From IMG/VR virus record IMGVR_UViG_3300048589_000303, positions 1 through 38,227 of that record: a stretch of DNA of 38,227 nucleotides. One strand, 5' to 3'. The DNA is from a virus. Both the position numbers and the translations under genes were made by a program. The notes under the pieces are model-generated. The model was not told where the DNA came from, ran no database searches, and was given only the letters and a program-made list of their open reading frames with translations. This document shows, in pieces, positions 5,551 to 38,227 of the stretch (the first letter of the stretch is position 1; each line of letters starts with the position of its first letter).

Positions 5551-5814
5551 CTACCGCTTCGTCACGTCGAGCATGTTCGATGCCATCGGCACATCGGATG
5601 CGATCGCCTTGCCGTGCGCGGCGCGGTTGGCGTCGTACGCACCCTCACCCAGTCCACGGGTCAGGATGATGCCGATCACGGTCGGGACAACGGCGGCGAC
5701 CATGATGCGCCAGTCCGTCGTCTGCGTGACGAGCCCGGCGATGCCCGAGATGCCGGTGAGGGCGGCGATGATGAGCGAACGCTTGAACGCTTCATTGTAA
5801 ATGGGACTACCCAC
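5551..5814 (-). CDS. Small membrane protein, holin candidate
   Basis: An 87-residue protein with two predicted membrane segments (about residues 13-30, LIIAALTGISGIAGLVT, and 36-54, RIMVAAVVPTVIGIILT) and a hydrophilic C-terminus. It starts with GTG at 5814, two bases after the preceding stop, with AAAGGA upstream. It lies at the end of the lysis block after the endolysin, where a holin is expected. Class II holins have this size and topology. An assignment from sequence alone is not certain because other small membrane genes (5816-5893, 7302-7676) lie in the same block. Confidence 0.65.
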   Translation of the reverse strand: MGSPIYNEAFKRSLIIAALTGISGIAGLVTQTTDWRIMVAAVVPTVIGIILTRGLGEGAYDANRAAHGKAIASDVPMASNMLDVTKR

Positions 5815-5815
5815 G

Positions 5816-5893
5816 TTACCTGTCCTTTCTGCCGGACCACCAGATGTAGCCGACCACGATCACGAAGAACAAAATGCCGAACATGTCTGCCAT
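5816..5893 (-). CDS. 25-residue single-span membrane microprotein
   Basis: The frame encodes MADM, a hydrophobic stretch FGILFFVIVVGYIWW and a basic end SGRKDR, so a single membrane helix with a positive cytoplasmic tail. It starts five bases after the endolysin stop and ends one base before the GTG of the holin candidate. A second ATG nine bases in is possible. No good ribosome binding site is seen; coupling to the endolysin gene would be needed. It may be a small lysis accessory (holin/antiholin type). Confidence 0.5.
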   Translation of the reverse strand: MADMFGILFFVIVVGYIWWSGRKDR

Positions 5894-5898
5894 AGGCG

Positions 5899-7302
5899 TT
5901 ACACATCCCGCTCCCAGGAAAAGCCCCCGTCCCAGCGATAGAGCTCGTTTCCGTTGCCGCGCCGGATCTTTTCCTGCGCTTTCGGCCAGAGCCCGGTCTT
6001 CTTGCCGTAGGCGAGCCAAACTTGGCTCGGGGCGGAATTGAGATCGAACCGTTCCTCTGCCCCGGTCGTCGGATCAGTGAACCGGCCATACAGGCGGCGC
6101 AGGGACTCGAACGAATGCCCAGCCGGAATCGTGTGCTTGTCCGGCTCCGGTTCCGGCTGCGGCTCTTCTTCCGGGAGTTCAATTTCCAGCCCGAGGGCGT
6201 GCCAAAGATCAACACGGCGCATCAATTCCGGCCACAGGCCCCGGTTCCGGATGAACTCCGGGCAGTTCTTGCCGTCCGGCGCCCAATCGTGGTGCTGCTT
6301 GATATGGTTGATGTCCAGGTCCCACGCCCCAACATTGTTCCGGAAGAACCGGCCCGGGTTGGTGGCGATCTCATTGATGAGCCACGCCAGGTGCCAGAGC
6401 GTGCGGTCGAAGTTGCCGATCTGGATCGTCTCGATAGCGATGCTGTTGCGGTTGCCGGCGCCGTTGAATCCGTCGCTGGCGTGCCAGGCCGCTTCATCGA
6501 GCGGCAGTAGCTGAATGACTTTCGTCGGCCCGACAACGAAGTGAAACGACACCTGCGCTGGCCCGCCCCCGTTGTGAACGAACCACTTGTGCATGGTTTC
6601 GTCCGCGCCCGGCGACTGATTGCCGACCTCATGGACGGTGATCCAGTCGGGCGACGGCATCGGCAGCGCGGGCCGGTTCGCGCCAGGCGGGGTAATGGCG
6701 ATTTCGACCGGCGGGGCCGGTACGGGGATGACGCTCACGGCGTTCTCACTTTCTCCCGTTGCCGGGAACAGCCGTTCCATCACGGCCAGCAGCTTCGTGT
6801 CGTACTTGGCGTCTACGGCCCAGGTCGCCCGGTCGCCCGCGTAGATGCGATTCAGATCCTCGACGTTCGTGACCAGCGGGCAGGCCGGGTCGTTGTATTT
6901 CGCGCTCCACCGGCGCACCCAGCCGATCGCGGCCGGCGGCAGGATGATGCGCCCGGCACTGTTCCATTCCCGCAGCGCCACCAGCATCGACCAGACGTGC
7001 AGCGCAGCCGCTTCGGTGCCGTCGAGGATTTTGTACGGGGTTGGATCGCTCGAGCTGGTGATGCCGAGCCCGGCCGCGTTGAGTTCACGCCAGCGCCCTT
7101 CTGGCCCTCCCCCGCCCGTTTCGTGGTGCCATTGACTCAGCAGCACCGTATGTCGCAACCCAAATGCGACACAGAGGGCGACGAGCTCGCGCACGTAGTC
7201 GGCGGTGTCGGCCGGCCGCACATCGCGGGGCGAGGCCGCCCGGATGCGTTGCAGGGCGTCGGCGGCCGTGATCGCGTCGCGGCCGCGGATCGGGGTGGGC
7301 AT
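5899..7302 (-). CDS. Endolysin with N-acetylmuramoyl-L-alanine amidase domain
   Basis: A 467-residue cell-wall hydrolase. Residues 1-180 resemble a glucosaminidase/lysozyme-like domain (LLSQWHHETGGGG with possible catalytic Glu61). Residues 215-360 form an amidase type 2 (PGRP-like) domain: WITVHEVGN with Zn ligand His224, HFVVG, AWHAS, and QHHDWAPDGKNCPEF supplying His337 or His338 and Cys347. A Pro/Glu linker (375-388) leads to a C-terminal module of about 75 residues, perhaps for wall binding. The start at 7302 overlaps the preceding stop as TAATG. It has no signal peptide, so release would need a holin. Two enzymatic domains in one protein are common in phages of Gram-positive-type hosts. 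Confidence 0.85.
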   Translation of the reverse strand: MPTPIRGRDAITAADALQRIRAASPRDVRPADTADYVRELVALCVAFGLRHTVLLSQWHHETGGGGPEGRWRELNAAGLGITSSSDPTPYKILDGTEAAALHVWSMLVALREWNSAGRIILPPAAIGWVRRWSAKYNDPACPLVTNVEDLNRIYAGDRATWAVDAKYDTKLLAVMERLFPATGESENAVSVIPVPAPPVEIAITPPGANRPALPMPSPDWITVHEVGNQSPGADETMHKWFVHNGGGPAQVSFHFVVGPTKVIQLLPLDEAAWHASDGFNGAGNRNSIAIETIQIGNFDRTLWHLAWLINEIATNPGRFFRNNVGAWDLDINHIKQHHDWAPDGKNCPEFIRNRGLWPELMRRVDLWHALGLEIELPEEEPQPEPEPDKHTIPAGHSFESLRRLYGRFTDPTTGAEERFDLNSAPSQVWLAYGKKTGLWPKAQEKIRRGNGNELYRWDGGFSWERDV

Positions 7303-12589: not shown

Positions 12590-15500
12590 TTACCTCCGCC
12601 CGTTCCGGGAGCGCGCCAGATCGTGCGACCGCTGCGCAAACCGGCTCCGATCGAGCGTGACCGTCTGAAAGACGGGTCCGTAGTAGGTGGGACCGTTGCC
12701 GCCGCCCTGCGCCCGGTCGGTCAGGTCACGGGTGGCGGGTGCGGGCAGCACCGACGTGCCGCGCGGCACGCTGTAGTAGTCGTGGTTGACGGCCAGCACG
12801 TTTGGCCCACCCGGATAGCGCAGCAGTTCCGGCCCGGCCTCGGCGGCTTCAATGACGATGCCCCCGCCCGCGTAGCCGTCGATCACCCCGCCGTGCAGGG
12901 CGGCGCGCCCGGCTGCGGCCAGCGATCCGCCGTCGATGCCAACGGTGGTGACGTAGGTGGTGACCGACCGGCCATCCATCGCGTTCAGCAACGCGAGCAC
13001 CCGGCTCAGACGGCCCTCGACGTCGTTGTCGGTCATCTTGACGTCGATGCCGAACGCCTCACCGATCACCCCCGCGAACAGCGTCACGGCATCGGTCAGG
13101 TTTTCAATCGCGACATTGGCCGAATCGACATCGCCGAAGTTGACCGATAGCACGCCGTCGGGTTCGGTAAGTAATCCCATGCTCAGCAACATCGCTTTCA
13201 GTTGCGGGTCCGCATTGGCGATTTCGAGCACCATGTTCGCCGTCGATGCCTGCATGGCTTCGCTCGACGACGCCGCCGCCAGTTGCGCCAGTTCGAGCGC
13301 CTGCGCGGTTTTGGCCTGATCGAGGAAGCCGAGCGAGACCAGTTGCTGTTCGGCGGGCATGTCGGCGATGGTGTCCACGTAGGCGGCGTGTTCTTCGGCC
13401 AGTTGCGCCATGAGCGGTAACTGCTTGGCTTGAATCCGCAGCGCGTCTTCCTGGACGGAGTTGTTGGCCAGCATGATCCGGTGGTTGGCTTCCAGCCCGT
13501 CCCGGTACGTCTTGTCGCTGATCAGGCCTTTCTGGTTCAGGTCGTTGAGGGTGCTGGTGGCCTTGTTGCCTTCGGTCAGGCTGTTCGACCAGTCCCAGAT
13601 GCTTTCGGAGAGCCGGGCGAAATTCTGGGCCGTCCCGACGACGCCGCCAAAGGTGCTATCGAGCACCGACGCGGGATTCATGTCAGCCGCCGATTCGCGC
13701 ACGCTATCGGCGAGTTGCCCGTATTCCTCGGCCAGTTCCGCGATGACGGCCAGCGATGTTTCAGACGATCGGGTGCCGTACTCGATGGATTTTGCGTAGG
13801 TGTCAGCGTAGTCCGATGCGAGTGCCAGAACCTTCGATCCGGCGTCTACCGCGTAGACGTATTCGCGGACGGACTTCCACGCCGCCCCCGCTGCGGCCGC
13901 GCCTTCGATCAAGGCGGTATTGATTTCGAGTTGACCCATCGAGAAGGCGCGCAGTGTCCGGGGGTCGGTGATGCCAACGACATCGGGCGCCATCGGTTCC
14001 GCGCCGGACCAGAGGTTCGCCCGTTGCCGTTCGATTTCCCGATCAGCGGCGAGTGTTTGGGTTTTCAGAAGCTGCGCGGCGGCGACTTCCTGCGCAATCA
14101 ACGCATCGGTCAGGATGTCCGCAGACCGTGCCTGCTCTTGTGTCGCCGTTGTGTTAGAGGTGAGTGCCGTGGTTTGTGCTTGCGTCGCGGTCGTTACGCC
14201 GGTTGCGGCCGTCGCTACGTCGTCCATCGACGCGGCAAGGTTGGCGTTCCCGGCTGTGGCGACGTCGGTCGAATCGCCCCACCCCTGAACTTCGTGATTG
14301 ATGTCATTCAGCGTATCGTGAAGAATCTTCCAGTCGCCAGCCAGTTGATCGCTGGCCTGGAATTCGCTCCATGCCGCCGTAGCATCACGGATCGCGTCCA
14401 CATTGCCAGATGAAATGATGGCGGCAAGGTCGTACTGCATATTTGAGATTTTGTAGCCGGCTTCCTCCGCACTGGCCCCGAATTCATTGATGTACTCCGT
14501 CATCTGGATCATTTGCGGCAGGATCATCGGCGAGACGTTTCCGCCCGCTTGCCACGCCTGGAACTCGTCGCCAAATTCGTTCCACAGAGATTGAAAGCCA
14601 GCAAGATCGTTTGTCGCTTCGTCAAGCCCCGCCGTGATCCCTGTGAACAAGGTATCGGCAGCGGTCAGGGTGGCGGCATCGGCGGCCGATTGTCCGAGCG
14701 TGGTATAGGATGCGGCCAGCGCATCGACCGCCATCTGTGAACTACTGGACACCTCTTCAACATCGGTCAGGGCGCCATAGAGTTCGATTGCGCCATAGGT
14801 TGCCAACCCCAACCCGGCGATGATTCCCACCGGGCCGATCAGCGCGGGGGCGAGTGCAATCAATGAGGTGAACGCGCCCGCGCTCTTGAGTCCCATCAGT
14901 CCCTTGCCGAGCTGCGCAATGCCGCCCGCCGCAATGCCGGCCTGCAGCCCGAACGATCCCAGCCCCGCCGCCACCTCACCGACCGGGCCGGTGAAGTTCA
15001 CGAATGCGAGTACGGCATCCTGTGTGTCGTTGGCGAGTTGCTGCACGCGCCCCGTGGTCGTATCGGCGGCGTCACCGGCTGCCCCGATCGCGAACTCGGA
15101 TTGCTCCATCAGGGCGTTGAACCGGAACGCCCCCGCCTCGGCGTTGCTCATGGAGAGCGTGAGGTTGTCCTGATCGATCGCCGCCTGGTTCATCGTCAGG
15201 CCGAGCATTTCAGCGGATTCAGCTTCACCACGAATGGCCGCTGCGACCCGCTGCGCCGCGTCTGCGAGCGTGGTGCCGTTCACCGCGGCCAAATCGGCGC
15301 TGGTGACGATGAGCTGCTGGATCTGCCCGTCAGTCAGTTCATAGTTGCGTTTGAGCGTGCCCATGATGTTGGCCGCTTCAATCGCCTGATCGTTTGAAAA
15401 TGTCGTCGAACCCTGAATCGTGTTGGCGAGATCGATGTACGATTGAGCGGCTTCCCCGTAGGTCCGATTCAGCGCCATGATGGCGACTTCATGGTCCCGT

Positions 15501-34392: not shown

Positions 34393-34814
34393 GCGGCCCT
34401 CCGATCGACGAAGCCGCGTGAACTGACGACGATGGCCGGAAATCCGTGGGTCCGGGCCTCGTCGAGGATCTGGCGCGAGCTGCGGCTGAAGTGGATGTTG
34501 TCGTGGAAGACGGCGAACGAGACCTCCGCGCCAATGGAGCGGAACTGCCGGGCGTTGAAGATCAGGCGATCGTTCGTCACCCGACCAACCAGCATCGGCA
34601 CGTTCATGGCCATCTCGATCGCGATGGCATCAATGCCGTCGTTCGATCCGGCTACCACCGCGGCGTTGAGCCGGTCGCCGTCGAAGGTCTGTTCGATGAC
34701 TCCGGTGATCGCGGCGGTCCACCGTTCCCGATCAGGCGTCGATGCGCCGTTGAGCCGGTCGCCGGTGATGATCAATATCTTCATGCCGCGCTTTGGTTTG
34801 GTCACGATGTTCAT
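34389..34814 (-). CDS. SLOG-type DUF2493-like protein
   Basis: A 141-residue protein with the Rossmann-like pattern of the SLOG/DUF2493 type: KILIITGDRLNGAS near the start, a helix (TAAITGVIEQTFDGDRLNAA), VVAGSNDGIDAIAIEMA, and AVFHDN. Such proteins are thought to bind nucleotides or nucleotide derivatives and occur in many phages, usually of unknown function. The start ATG 34814 overlaps the J-domain gene stop as ATGA; a second ATG ten codons in (34784) is possible. Confidence 0.7.
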   Translation of the reverse strand: MNIVTKPKRGMKILIITGDRLNGASTPDRERWTAAITGVIEQTFDGDRLNAAVVAGSNDGIDAIAIEMAMNVPMLVGRVTNDRLIFNARQFRSIGAEVSFAVFHDNIHFSRSSRQILDEARTHGFPAIVVSSRGFVDRRAA

Positions 34815-35230
34815 GCGGCCTCCTTGAGGGTTGGCTTCAATCGGTCATAGGCGACGTTGATCGTCTGCATCCGGTGCGTGTCGCCGCCAGCGTCGGGGTG
34901 ATAGAGCCGGGCCAGCGCCTTGTAGGCAGCGTGGACCACCGCCGGCGGTGCGTCGTCGGTCACGTAGAGCGTGCGCCGGTCACGGTTGCCCGGCTGGCTC
35001 CCGGTGTTCGTCTCACTGGGGCGCGATTCGCGCAGATTCGCGTAGATCGATCGCACCAGGTCAACGGCCAGCGGGGCGTATTCGCCCCAGACGATCCACG
35101 CCTTGATCTCCGGATTCCACGACCGCAGATGCGGCGGAATGGTCAGCTTGAGCTGACTGAGCAGCCCTTCGTGGTACGGGAAGCGCAGGACCACCGATCC
35201 GTCTACTTGCCATGCCGCAGACGCGCTCAT
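34811..35230 (-). CDS. J-domain protein
   Basis: A 139-residue protein. The first 75 residues are a mixed fold (VLRFPYHEGLLSQLKLTIPP, IKAWIVWGEYAPLAVDLVRS) and the C-terminus is a J-domain: AAYKALARLYHPDAGGD with the key HPD motif at 111-113, then INVAYDRL. A J-domain recruits Hsp70 (DnaK), and phage examples work in replication-complex remodelling. The start ATG 35230 overlaps the helicase-like gene's stop as ATGA. The N-terminal part has no recognised family. Confidence 0.85.
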   Translation of the reverse strand: MSASAAWQVDGSVVLRFPYHEGLLSQLKLTIPPHLRSWNPEIKAWIVWGEYAPLAVDLVRSIYANLRESRPSETNTGSQPGNRDRRTLYVTDDAPPAVVHAAYKALARLYHPDAGGDTHRMQTINVAYDRLKPTLKEAA

Positions 35231-37368
35231 GCACTTTCCTCCTCGGCCTCGAAGAACGAGGTCTGCGCGTCCTCCCCGTCCGGGAACGCCAGGTGAATGA
35301 CATTCTTGAGCTGGCCTTCGAGCGTCTTGCGCACGAAGTTGGTGCGGCGCTTTTCGTCCCGTGACAGCAGGTAGCCGGATTCGTTCAGGCGTTGCAGCAG
35401 CGTCTTTTCGAGCAACGGGAACTGTTCGCCCGCCCGCTGCAACCGCTCCCGGATGTGCAGGTACGTGGCCGTGAAGTTCAGGTACACGCCGCCCGATGTG
35501 CAGACCCAGCCGATCTTGTTCCCCTGCGGCCGCCATTCCGGATCGCTCTGGCCGATCGCGATTTCGCGCCAGCCCCAGTTGCCCGGATTGTCCGGCCTTC
35601 GCCCGCCGGGACTGGTGAGATGGACCCGGCCGGCCAGCAACTCGGCTTCGAGGGTGATCAGGAACTGCCGGACCGGATCAACCGCGTCCTGGTGGCTGGC
35701 CTGCTCGACGATCAGGGTGCGCAGAATCTGTTCCGCTTCATCGCTGAGCGCATCGATCACGTTATCGGCGACGGCGCCAGTCTCACGGGCGTAGTCCGCA
35801 AACAGCGAGAACGCGGCGAACATCTGCGCGGCCGTCTGGGTCGTGCGATGGTGGGCGCTGCTGGCGCTCTGGAATTCCGCCCGGCAGAAGGTGAACCGGT
35901 CACGATACGTCGCCTGCACGGCTTCGTAGTTCGCGGCAATCCACCGGATGTAGGCGCTCAGGGCAGCCGCGTACAGGCCGCTCTTCGCGTCGCTCTGGGC
36001 CGTGGTCAGGTTCGCCCAGTTCATCGCGTGCTTGTTGATCTCCACGATCAGGAAGCGCGAATTCAGGCTCTGCCCGAGCGGCGCGTCTTCTCCGGTGATC
36101 AGCAGCAGCCCCCGCGGCGCGCGCTGGGATCGCAGTTGCGAATCGCGGGTCAGCCGGGCACGTCCTGATGTGTTGCCGGCCGCACGCCCGATCCGTTCCG
36201 CAATCGCATCGACCTTCGCGGCGACGTTGCGCTGGAAGTCATCGATCACCAGCACGGCATCCTTGGCCAGGTTCGCCTGGACTTCCAGCGCGTTCGCCGT
36301 ACTGGTGAAGTTCGCCGGGAGGTTGTCACTGGTGAAGGCCGGGCCGAACGCCTGCTGCACCAGCGCGGCAAGTTGGCTCTTGCCGAGCCCGGTCGAACCT
36401 TTCAGGAAGATCGAGAAGTCGATCCGTCCCAGAATCGCCCGCAACGTGGCGCACCACAACGGGACCGTGATCGTGCGGTTGGCCACGTCGAGCGACGCCA
36501 GCCACGCCGCGGTAGCAGCCCGGAGGTCGTCGCCGGTCGGCGGGTCGGGGAACCGGTACTGGTCGAGCGGTGGCGAGAGATGGACGCCCACGTCGGCCCG
36601 CAGTCCATCGGCTGTGATCGCGCCGGTGGCGGTCAAATACCCCATCTCGCCGTCGTCAAGCTCACGCCACCCGGTGTGCCCGTAGATGGACTTCTTTTCC
36701 GGATCGCTGTTCAGCCGGATCGCGGCCGCTACGATGGCGTGCGCGTTCGGCCCCGGCATGACCACGGCTGATGCGCCGATGCGGTCGGTGTGCCACTCCA
36801 TTGCCTCGAACTGCCGGGCCGGAATCGTGAAGGTGCGGCGAATCTCGCCGTGCCAGGCTTCCACCCGGAACTCGCGCCGGTCCTCGGTGCCGTCGTTGAT
36901 TTCGATGTCTTCGAGAATCCGCCCGCCAAAGTTCGCCGCCTGGATGGTGATCAACTCAGGATCGTTCGAGCTGCGGGGCCGCTCGTAGAACACCCCTTCC
37001 TCGGTCACTGAATACTGATCCTTGCGGTCCTTGAACGAGACCGAGTGCCGGGCCGGTTCACCCAGCAGGAGATCGGCCTGTTGCGCCACCACCACCAGTT
37101 CGCGGCGGCAATCGTCGGACCCGTCGTAGAGCTTGCGTACCGCGTTCAGGAAGCGCTGGCGGCTCGTTTCCGACGCCAGGTCGAGCTTGTCGATATGGAC
37201 GATCTGGCCGCCGCTCAGTTCGAGCTGCACCCGATGCTTGCGGCCCGGCGCCCGTTCGAGCCGGTAGGTGTGGCCGGACGCCGGGAAGAGGATAAAGCCC
37301 TCACCAAGCTCGAACTCAAGCGGAGCGCCGGACTCGGGAGCGCCAGCCCCGTGATCGTCAGAAGACAC
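35227..37368 (-). CDS. DUF927-like ATPase, replicative helicase
   Basis: A 713-residue protein. Residues 110-300 look like a DUF927 region (IYGHTGWRELDDG, TVPLWCATLRAILG), then an ATPase: Walker A GSTGLGKS (324-331), Walker B VLVIDDF (372-378), RGLLLITGED sensor 1 and a downstream conserved Arg. The C-terminus has a winged-helix-like part. It is probably the phage helicase acting with the primase next to it. Start is GTG at 37368, overlapping the primase stop by 11 bases; no ATG fits. Confidence 0.8.
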   Translation of the reverse strand: MSSDDHGAGAPESGAPLEFELGEGFILFPASGHTYRLERAPGRKHRVQLELSGGQIVHIDKLDLASETSRQRFLNAVRKLYDGSDDCRRELVVVAQQADLLLGEPARHSVSFKDRKDQYSVTEEGVFYERPRSSNDPELITIQAANFGGRILEDIEINDGTEDRREFRVEAWHGEIRRTFTIPARQFEAMEWHTDRIGASAVVMPGPNAHAIVAAAIRLNSDPEKKSIYGHTGWRELDDGEMGYLTATGAITADGLRADVGVHLSPPLDQYRFPDPPTGDDLRAATAAWLASLDVANRTITVPLWCATLRAILGRIDFSIFLKGSTGLGKSQLAALVQQAFGPAFTSDNLPANFTSTANALEVQANLAKDAVLVIDDFQRNVAAKVDAIAERIGRAAGNTSGRARLTRDSQLRSQRAPRGLLLITGEDAPLGQSLNSRFLIVEINKHAMNWANLTTAQSDAKSGLYAAALSAYIRWIAANYEAVQATYRDRFTFCRAEFQSASSAHHRTTQTAAQMFAAFSLFADYARETGAVADNVIDALSDEAEQILRTLIVEQASHQDAVDPVRQFLITLEAELLAGRVHLTSPGGRRPDNPGNWGWREIAIGQSDPEWRPQGNKIGWVCTSGGVYLNFTATYLHIRERLQRAGEQFPLLEKTLLQRLNESGYLLSRDEKRRTNFVRKTLEGQLKNVIHLAFPDGEDAQTSFFEAEEESA

Positions 37369-37912
37369 GGGCGCTGCCTCGTTTCGTCTCCACCCGCTCG
37401 CGATAGGAGTCGGGGTTGCGTCCCGCGCCAATGATGGCCGTCCGGACCGAGGCCACGAACGACTGGCAGCCAGCCCAGTGCTCGCAGAAGGTGAAGATAC
37501 CGCCCCCGCGCCCGCAGCCCCAGCAGTACCACTTCTGGCCATCGGCCGAGACCTTGAAGCTGGGCGCGGAATCGTGATGATCGGGGAACGGGCAGCGACC
37601 CACGAAGTTGTTGCCGGTTTTGCGCAGATCGACCGCCGCCAGCATGGGCGCCAGATCGAGCATCGTAATGTCCTGTTTGATGCGATCGAGATCGTAGCGG
37701 GCCGCGCCGGGACGAAGGGCCGCCAGCGGGTCCGGAATCCGTTCCCGCATTCGCAGCTCGTTCACGATGGCGGTACGGCGAACGCCCAGAAATGCGCGGG
37801 TCGGTTCATCGGGTAACTCCGCCAGGTCCATGTCGATCCCCCAGAGCCAGCCCGCCAGGTGATCCTGCGAACGCCCACGCACGTAGCTTTTCAAGTCATC
37901 CTGTTGCTGCAT
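37358..37912 (-). CDS. CHC2 zinc-finger primase
   Basis: A 184-residue protein. The N-terminal 95 residues are helical. Residues 100-150 contain the primase zinc finger: CPFPDHH (C107, H112 or H113), SAPSFKVSADGQKWYCWGCG with C130 and C133, and a following GIFTFCEH. There is no TOPRIM catalytic domain, so the primer polymerase may lie in another protein. Start ATG 37912 has GAGGA upstream; a TTG at 37924 is also in frame. First gene of the early operon, next to the repeat array. Confidence 0.85.
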   Translation of the reverse strand: MQQQDDLKSYVRGRSQDHLAGWLWGIDMDLAELPDEPTRAFLGVRRTAIVNELRMRERIPDPLAALRPGAARYDLDRIKQDITMLDLAPMLAAVDLRKTGNNFVGRCPFPDHHDSAPSFKVSADGQKWYCWGCGRGGGIFTFCEHWAGCQSFVASVRTAIIGAGRNPDSYRERVETKRGSARVF

Positions 37913-37927
37913 GCCAGTCCTCAATTG

Positions 37928-38216
37928 TTGTCGGCACTTGTCGGCAACGAATCACCATGCCGACAACGAAAACTCCGCATCATATCGGGGGATATTGGGT
38001 CACTTGTCGGCATTGTCTGCTTTGTCGGCATGGAACTAGGTACGCACACACGGACTCGATCTTTTTTCGTCATCACGGATATGTGCGCGTTACGTATGCG
38101 AGCATCTACTTTTCTGCCGACAATGCCGACAATGCCGACAATTCGCTAAAACGTGCGGAGAAATCCGCAGGTTTTGTTGTCGCCTCCCTTGTCGGCATGA
38201 GACCTCATGCCGACAA
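37928..38216. repeat. Array of TTGTCGGCA-type repeats (origin or operator)
   Basis: At least ten copies of TTGTCGGCA(T) occur in both orientations: 37928-37936, 37938-37946, 37957-37966 (reverse), 38004-38013, 38022-38031, 38115-38123 (reverse), 38123-38132 (reverse), 38132-38141 (reverse), 38189-38198 and 38207-38216 (reverse). Three copies share bases in 9-bp steps at 38115-38141. The stretch 37913-38227 has no convincing gene; it lies upstream of the primase-helicase genes. Iterons at an origin or operators of a regulator are the two readings. Confidence 0.8.
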
Positions 38217-38223
38217 GGGAGGC
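38182..38223. repeat. Perfect palindrome with 20-bp arms
   Basis: The arms at 38182-38201 and 38204-38223 are exact inverted copies with only AC between them. Each arm contains one TTGTCGGCAT repeat. DNA extrusion to a cruciform, or a bound dimer, would be possible; no T-run follows, so it is unlikely to be a terminator. Confidence 0.8.
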
Positions 38224-38227
38224 AGAA

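Follow-up and report, generated by a model that had tools for sequence, protein, structure and literature searches.

An array of a 9-bp repeat at the right end of the window (the whole stretch of viral DNA analysed here, 38,227 nucleotides) is probably a replication origin, or the main part of one truncated by the contig end, bound by the phage's own DUF927 AAA+ helicase through its C-terminal domain. Replication most likely starts there, with the phage's helicase gripping two mirror-image sets of the 9-letter site. The features concerned are the following.

35227-about 37368, minus strand: DUF927 AAA+ (SF3-like) helicase, proposed initiator (PF06048, profile matches)
37358-37912, minus strand: primase gene, CHC2 zinc-binding domain, 184 aa, ATG start (PF01807, E 8e-17)
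37928-37936 and 37938-37946, plus strand: two direct sites TTGTCGGCA, just upstream of the primase gene (sequence)
37958-37966, minus strand: single inverted site TGCCGACAA (sequence)
38004-38030, plus strand: left triplet, 9-bp steps, with the middle copy degenerate, TTGTCTGCT (sequence)
38031-38114, no strand: central segment of 84 bp between the triplets (composition, stability)
38115-38141, minus strand: right triplet, three exact inverted sites, 9-bp steps (sequence)
38182-38223, no strand: perfect palindrome of 42 bp, holding the inverted sites 38189-38197 and 38208-38216 (sequence)

Copies and symmetry of the repeat array

Ten exact copies of the repeat, some direct (TTGTCGGCA) and some inverted (TGCCGACAA), were found at 37928-38216; when the whole 38-kb window was shuffled by dinucleotides, the mean was 0.40 copies and the maximum 2. 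The count of ten or more given in a preliminary description of this DNA was therefore confirmed, as were the triplet in strict 9-bp steps (38115-38141) and the place of the array beside the primase. The CHC2 gene starts at 37912 (minus strand), 15 bp from the closest site, and the 315-bp gap between this start and the contig end contains the ten copies. An eleventh exact copy is solitary, at 1145, within a Cro-like gene. Clusters of at least five copies of an 8-mer did not occur in 60 Markov shuffles of the window. A second two-orientation cluster of this size was sought in the window and not found, although further copies may lie beyond the contig end.

The array is two-sided, which had been missed before: the left triplet faces the inverted right triplet across the 84-bp segment, and the two (38004-38030 and 38115-38141) are exact mirror images about an axis at 38072.5. 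When a tolerance of 1 bp was allowed, 8 of 11 sites were paired symmetrically. Six exact symmetric sites were reached in 9 of 2000 trials with 11 single sites placed at random; given the two triplets, their opposite orientation by itself is a coin flip. The central 84 bp contain 52% A+T (window, 36%), and in stability they rank among the lowest 1% of stretches of this length. This segment is a candidate melting region, AT-rich in relative terms only; less stable stretches are present in the immunity/integration region, at about 1-4 kb.

Palindrome and contig end

The palindrome at 38182-38223 had been described as having 20-bp arms with two bases between them, and it does: the 20-nt arms are perfect and the loop is 2 nt. 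Arms in shuffled windows did not exceed 13 nt, and the runner-up in the window also had 13 nt. A function as transcription terminator was rejected, the T run being absent. A simple fold-back artefact of assembly was judged unlikely, because both borders of the palindrome lie within the contig, although the second is just 4 bases from the contig end. Since the contig stops there, the array may be cut. When the two contig ends were joined directly, the left-end ORF read into the array with no early stop, and sequence between the ends is therefore probably missing.

Helicase and primase genes

The helicase ORF is open from 37542 (771 aa), with a GTG at 37368 as the likely start. Its translation contains Walker A and Walker B motifs (GSTGLGKS and VLVIDD) and scored 24.9 bits against PF06048 (DUF927), for which the gathering threshold is 22.6. 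A profile made from the helicase and its homologues matched Cch of SCCmec (5dgk, E 1.8e-4), and a profile with Chloroflexia homologues matched a 'Pathogenicity island protein' (8tch, E 1.8e-8), in the AAA+ domain only. The protein is a member of the DUF927 helicase family. The earlier view that no initiator was evident nearby, and that the binding protein would be new, was not supported: a DUF927 helicase adjoins the array and groups by profile with Cch and the pathogenicity island protein. Profile matches to toxin repeat domains involved a short GW motif and were set aside as chance.

No Toprim domain was detected in the CHC2 primase, which has the zinc-binding part only, or in the helicase. 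AlphaFold gave no usable model of the helicase, either in full length or for the C-terminal part. The helicase gene is followed by a gene for a protein with a weak DnaJ domain (34811-35536); J-domain proteins are also encoded near the replication genes of G006, a relative described below, and in two Brachybacterium plasmid loci.

Phage, host and relatives

The contig is linear and represents part of a temperate tailed phage, with genes for a portal protein, the terminase large subunit, a major head protein, a serine integrase, a KilA-N protein and CI- and Cro-like HTH proteins. On the minus strand the order begins at the left end with the Cro-like gene and continues, presumably over the missing junction, with the array, the replication genes and then the structural genes. 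Relatives of the portal protein (52-63% identity) were found in eight viral contigs, from all of which both the helicase and the TTGTCGGCA repeat are absent. The largest portal relative, G006 (loci L028 and L029), has an IstB/DnaC-type ATPase in place of the primase-helicase module. Because the portal relatives lack helicase and repeat, and G006 has the DnaC-like ATPase instead, the gene contents compared indicate that the replication module has evidently been exchanged within this phage group. G006 is a prophage beside folD and encodes a tyrosine integrase. The best matches of the flanking folD were to Thermomicrobiales and Chloroflexia genomes, and the host of the window phage is on this ground probably a Thermomicrobiales/Chloroflexia bacterium.

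Close relatives of the helicase and of the primase were absent from viral and genome contigs in single-query searches. As an array, TTGTCGGCA was present in no other record searched. The doubled repeat TTGTCGGCATTGTCGGCA was matched in 13 viral contigs, none of which had an array. Two human-gut phage fragments encode helicases 28% identical to that of the window, and no array is present in the fragment sequence available.

Arrays beside helicase homologues

A first set of loci came from 158 genomes of the host class, in which a protein search gave homologues with 24-36% identity. All six Chloroflexia loci with enough flank carry arrays of 8-9 bp sites in two orientations, at most 300 bp downstream of the helicase match, and in none of the six does another repeat cluster of the locus rank above this array. 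The repeat words, one per locus, are ACCTGGCC, ATGTAACC, GTTACCCC, TGTCCCCG, TGTCACAT and TGTCCCTA, most of them with 9-bp steps; TGTCACAT belongs to L149. A second set, gathered later by profile search of 400 genomes of the phylum, comprised 13 further helicase loci (one duplicate was excluded), and an array was present downstream of the helicase in seven and absent from six. The positive loci include close kin (L162/L163 and L165/L176/L166), so that the independent events are fewer than seven. As background, 108 unrelated loci (510 kb) were scanned and gave one such cluster, and none with a 9-bp step. Arrays of this kind are thus recurrently associated with the helicase family.

A TGT start is common to many of the repeats (TGTCGGCA, TGTCACAT, TGTCCCCG, TGTCCCTA, TGTTCCCG, TGTTTCCA). 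Similarity of the repeats was not significantly correlated with similarity of the helicases (Spearman 0.118, Mantel p 0.12). The position of the array differs, being upstream of the primase in the window and downstream of the helicase in the Chloroflexota homologues. The module of locus L147 has the layout of the window: three sites at 9-bp steps, 96 bp, and three inverted sites at 9-bp steps (93 bp in the window). The array of L147 is longer, which would suggest that the window array extends past 38227. A single ORF of L147 (1770-6533) encodes a helicase and, after it, a region resembling family A DNA polymerases; the array lies between the two, inside the reading frame. L150, an integrated Chloroflexia element, has arrays at 5617-5915 and 13211-13443, with the words TGTCCCTA and TGTAACCG; the second is mirror-symmetric, and no helicase of the DUF927 family adjoins it.

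Homologues were also found on 21 plasmids, and on about half of these an array precedes the CHC2-helicase gene by 0.6-1.0 kb. The step patterns are strikingly alike in Rhodococcus, Brachybacterium and Cellulosimicrobium plasmids. A group of actinobacterial plasmids (pAL1, pFiD188, pRHL2 and others) has a common layout, with the array about 0.6-0.9 kb before the CHC2-helicase gene and with replicon-specific words. It frequently consists of three sites spaced 12 bp apart, one inverted site, about 40 bp, and two sites at 9 bp, and it is a candidate origin for the group. The arrays lie at the following positions.

L040, 3246-3490: plasmid array
L041, 3453-3610: plasmid array
L046, 3765-3861: plasmid array
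L048, 3636-3782: plasmid array
L049, 3329-3426: plasmid array
L050, 3525-3621: plasmid array
L054, 3484-3579: plasmid array

Alternative readings of the array

The preliminary description had left open whether the array was an origin or the operator of the early operon. As an operator it would be bound at its many sites by a phage HTH repressor or activator that controls the primase promoter. Its sites lie 15-310 bp from the primase start, genes for HTH_3 proteins are present (1048-1305 and 1295-1696), and many-copy operators are known in other phages. No match to a sigma-70-type promoter was found in 37700-38227, however, and arrays of this kind recur beside DUF927 helicases in elements of other gene content. 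The HTH genes are, moreover, flanked by palindromes of their own, CTCTCAC[C/G]TGAGAG, which differ from the array repeat. These palindromes, CTCTCACGTGAGAG (1088-1101) and CTCTCACCTGAGAG (1318-1331), stand at both ends of the Cro-like HTH gene 1048-1305 and are likely the operators of the CI/Cro switch. Because the CI/Cro-like genes are flanked by this different operator-like palindrome, the array is disfavoured as a CI/Cro operator. The small HTH proteins, previously named as candidate binders, are not supported in that role. An operator role is quite improbable on this evidence, and it is the origin half of the earlier claim that gains comparative support, from the loci of the helicase homologues. 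Beside its proposed role as origin, the array may double as an autoregulatory site.

It is also unlikely that the array is an origin read by another protein, whether a small one of the phage or a host initiator (for instance DnaA), with the helicase being recruited. Plasmids often have a small ORF between the array and the primase-helicase gene, and often an HTH gene after it, so that in them a second protein could read the sites, but these partner genes vary among the plasmids, the Chloroflexota elements and the phage, and the constant neighbour is the helicase. The consensus of the DnaA box is TTATCCACA, and by comparison with it TTGTCGGCA is no DnaA box. Most improbable is a partition site, a packaging site or a structural repeat unrelated to the start of replication. 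Some plasmid arrays do adjoin ParA genes (L041 900-1159, L037 754-861), and arrays alone are for this reason no proof of an origin. The parA-adjacent arrays, however, have their sites in one orientation or nearly so; no partition gene was found among the window proteins scanned, and a phage with a serine integrase does not need plasmid persistence.

Proposed initiation and its significance

We infer that the array serves as an origin and that it is read by the DUF927 helicase rather than by another protein. The 9-bp sites would be iterons, arranged in two mirror-image sets that flank a less stable segment of 84 bp. It is the C-terminal domain of SaPI Rep helicases that recognises iteron origins, and SaPIbov1 Rep has a relative in Cch, a DUF927 protein (PMC7581432). 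The phage helicase would bind the iterons through its C-terminal domain, with one assembly per side, melt the segment between the two sets and load itself bidirectionally. Priming may then involve the CHC2 protein, whose gene lies just downstream. A separate initiator would be unnecessary, since the neighbouring DUF927 helicase is proposed to recognise the origin.

The two-sided design of iteron origins has so far been described mainly from phage satellites such as SaPIs. PICI origins always have two iteron sets around an AT-rich region, an organisation found in no other known bacterial replicon (PMC6092414); the window fits this description closely. If the array works as proposed, the two-set organisation is no longer confined to PICI replicons; the same origin logic would be present in a complete temperate phage and in many plasmids and integrated elements of two phyla, and the initiator of the phage would be the helicase itself. 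We lean, by a little, towards the broader view that DUF927 initiator helicases and the two-sided iteron origins they read form a replication system general to Chloroflexota and Actinomycetota mobile elements (phages, integrated elements and linear plasmids) and not a speciality of staphylococcal or enterobacterial satellites. The repeat word would be lineage-specific, the 8-9 bp step and the mirror layout would be constant, and the window phage would have this system in the place taken by a DnaC-type module in related phages. Mirrored short repeats no more than a few hundred bases from a DUF927 helicase could then serve to locate origins in dark phage and plasmid genomes, and natural origin-initiator pairs with many repeat words would be available for study of how the C-terminal domain reads DNA.

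Comparison with known replication systems

A winged-helix initiator of the Rep_3/RepA type, as in classical iteron plasmids, was not found among the neighbouring window proteins scanned, and no window protein scanned matched the lambda O or P families. The iterons of lambda lie inside the initiator gene O, which adjoins a helicase loader, whereas the window array lies outside the replication genes. The alpha protein of phage P4 belongs to a primase-helicase element that reads short repeats in both orientations (ori and crr), and the window likewise combines a primase-helicase element with short two-orientation sites. P4, whose alpha and ori are named in PMC6092414, differs in having a single primase-helicase protein instead of two, and two repeat clusters against one in the window contig, the end of which may hide more; scans of the window proteins gave no match to the P4 alpha family.

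The actinobacterial 'telomere-associated' CHC2-helicase proteins (pAL1, pRHL2, pFiD188 and others) have in common with the window the CHC2 domain and a helicase of SF3/DUF927 type (22-32% identity), together with an array of 8-9 bp sites, some direct and some inverted, upstream of the gene. In contrast to the window, they are single polypeptides of about 1,700 aa, encoded mostly on linear plasmids, with other repeats and another layout (e.g. steps of 12, 12, 14, 41 and 9). SCCmec Cch (PDB 5dgk) is alike in helicase family, by profile alone; the similarity is weak and limited to the helicase region, and the type of element and the host are different.

The SaPI/PICI replicon resembles the window in having an initiator helicase of the DUF927/SaPIbov1 Rep kind with an adjacent primase, and a less stable centre flanked by two iteron sets in mirror arrangement. 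The window helicase belongs with the Rep family by its matches to PF06048, 5dgk and 8tch, in the AAA+ domain. The window, however, comes from a complete tailed phage, which has its own genes for portal, terminase and capsid, and not from a helper-dependent satellite; its primase is a CHC2 zinc-binding protein and not an AEP; and its array lies upstream of the primase, whereas the SaPI/PICI origin lies immediately 3' of rep. Because it is carried by a full phage and has an array that does not lie 3' of the helicase gene, the window system is not a SaPI/PICI replicon, although it would work like one.
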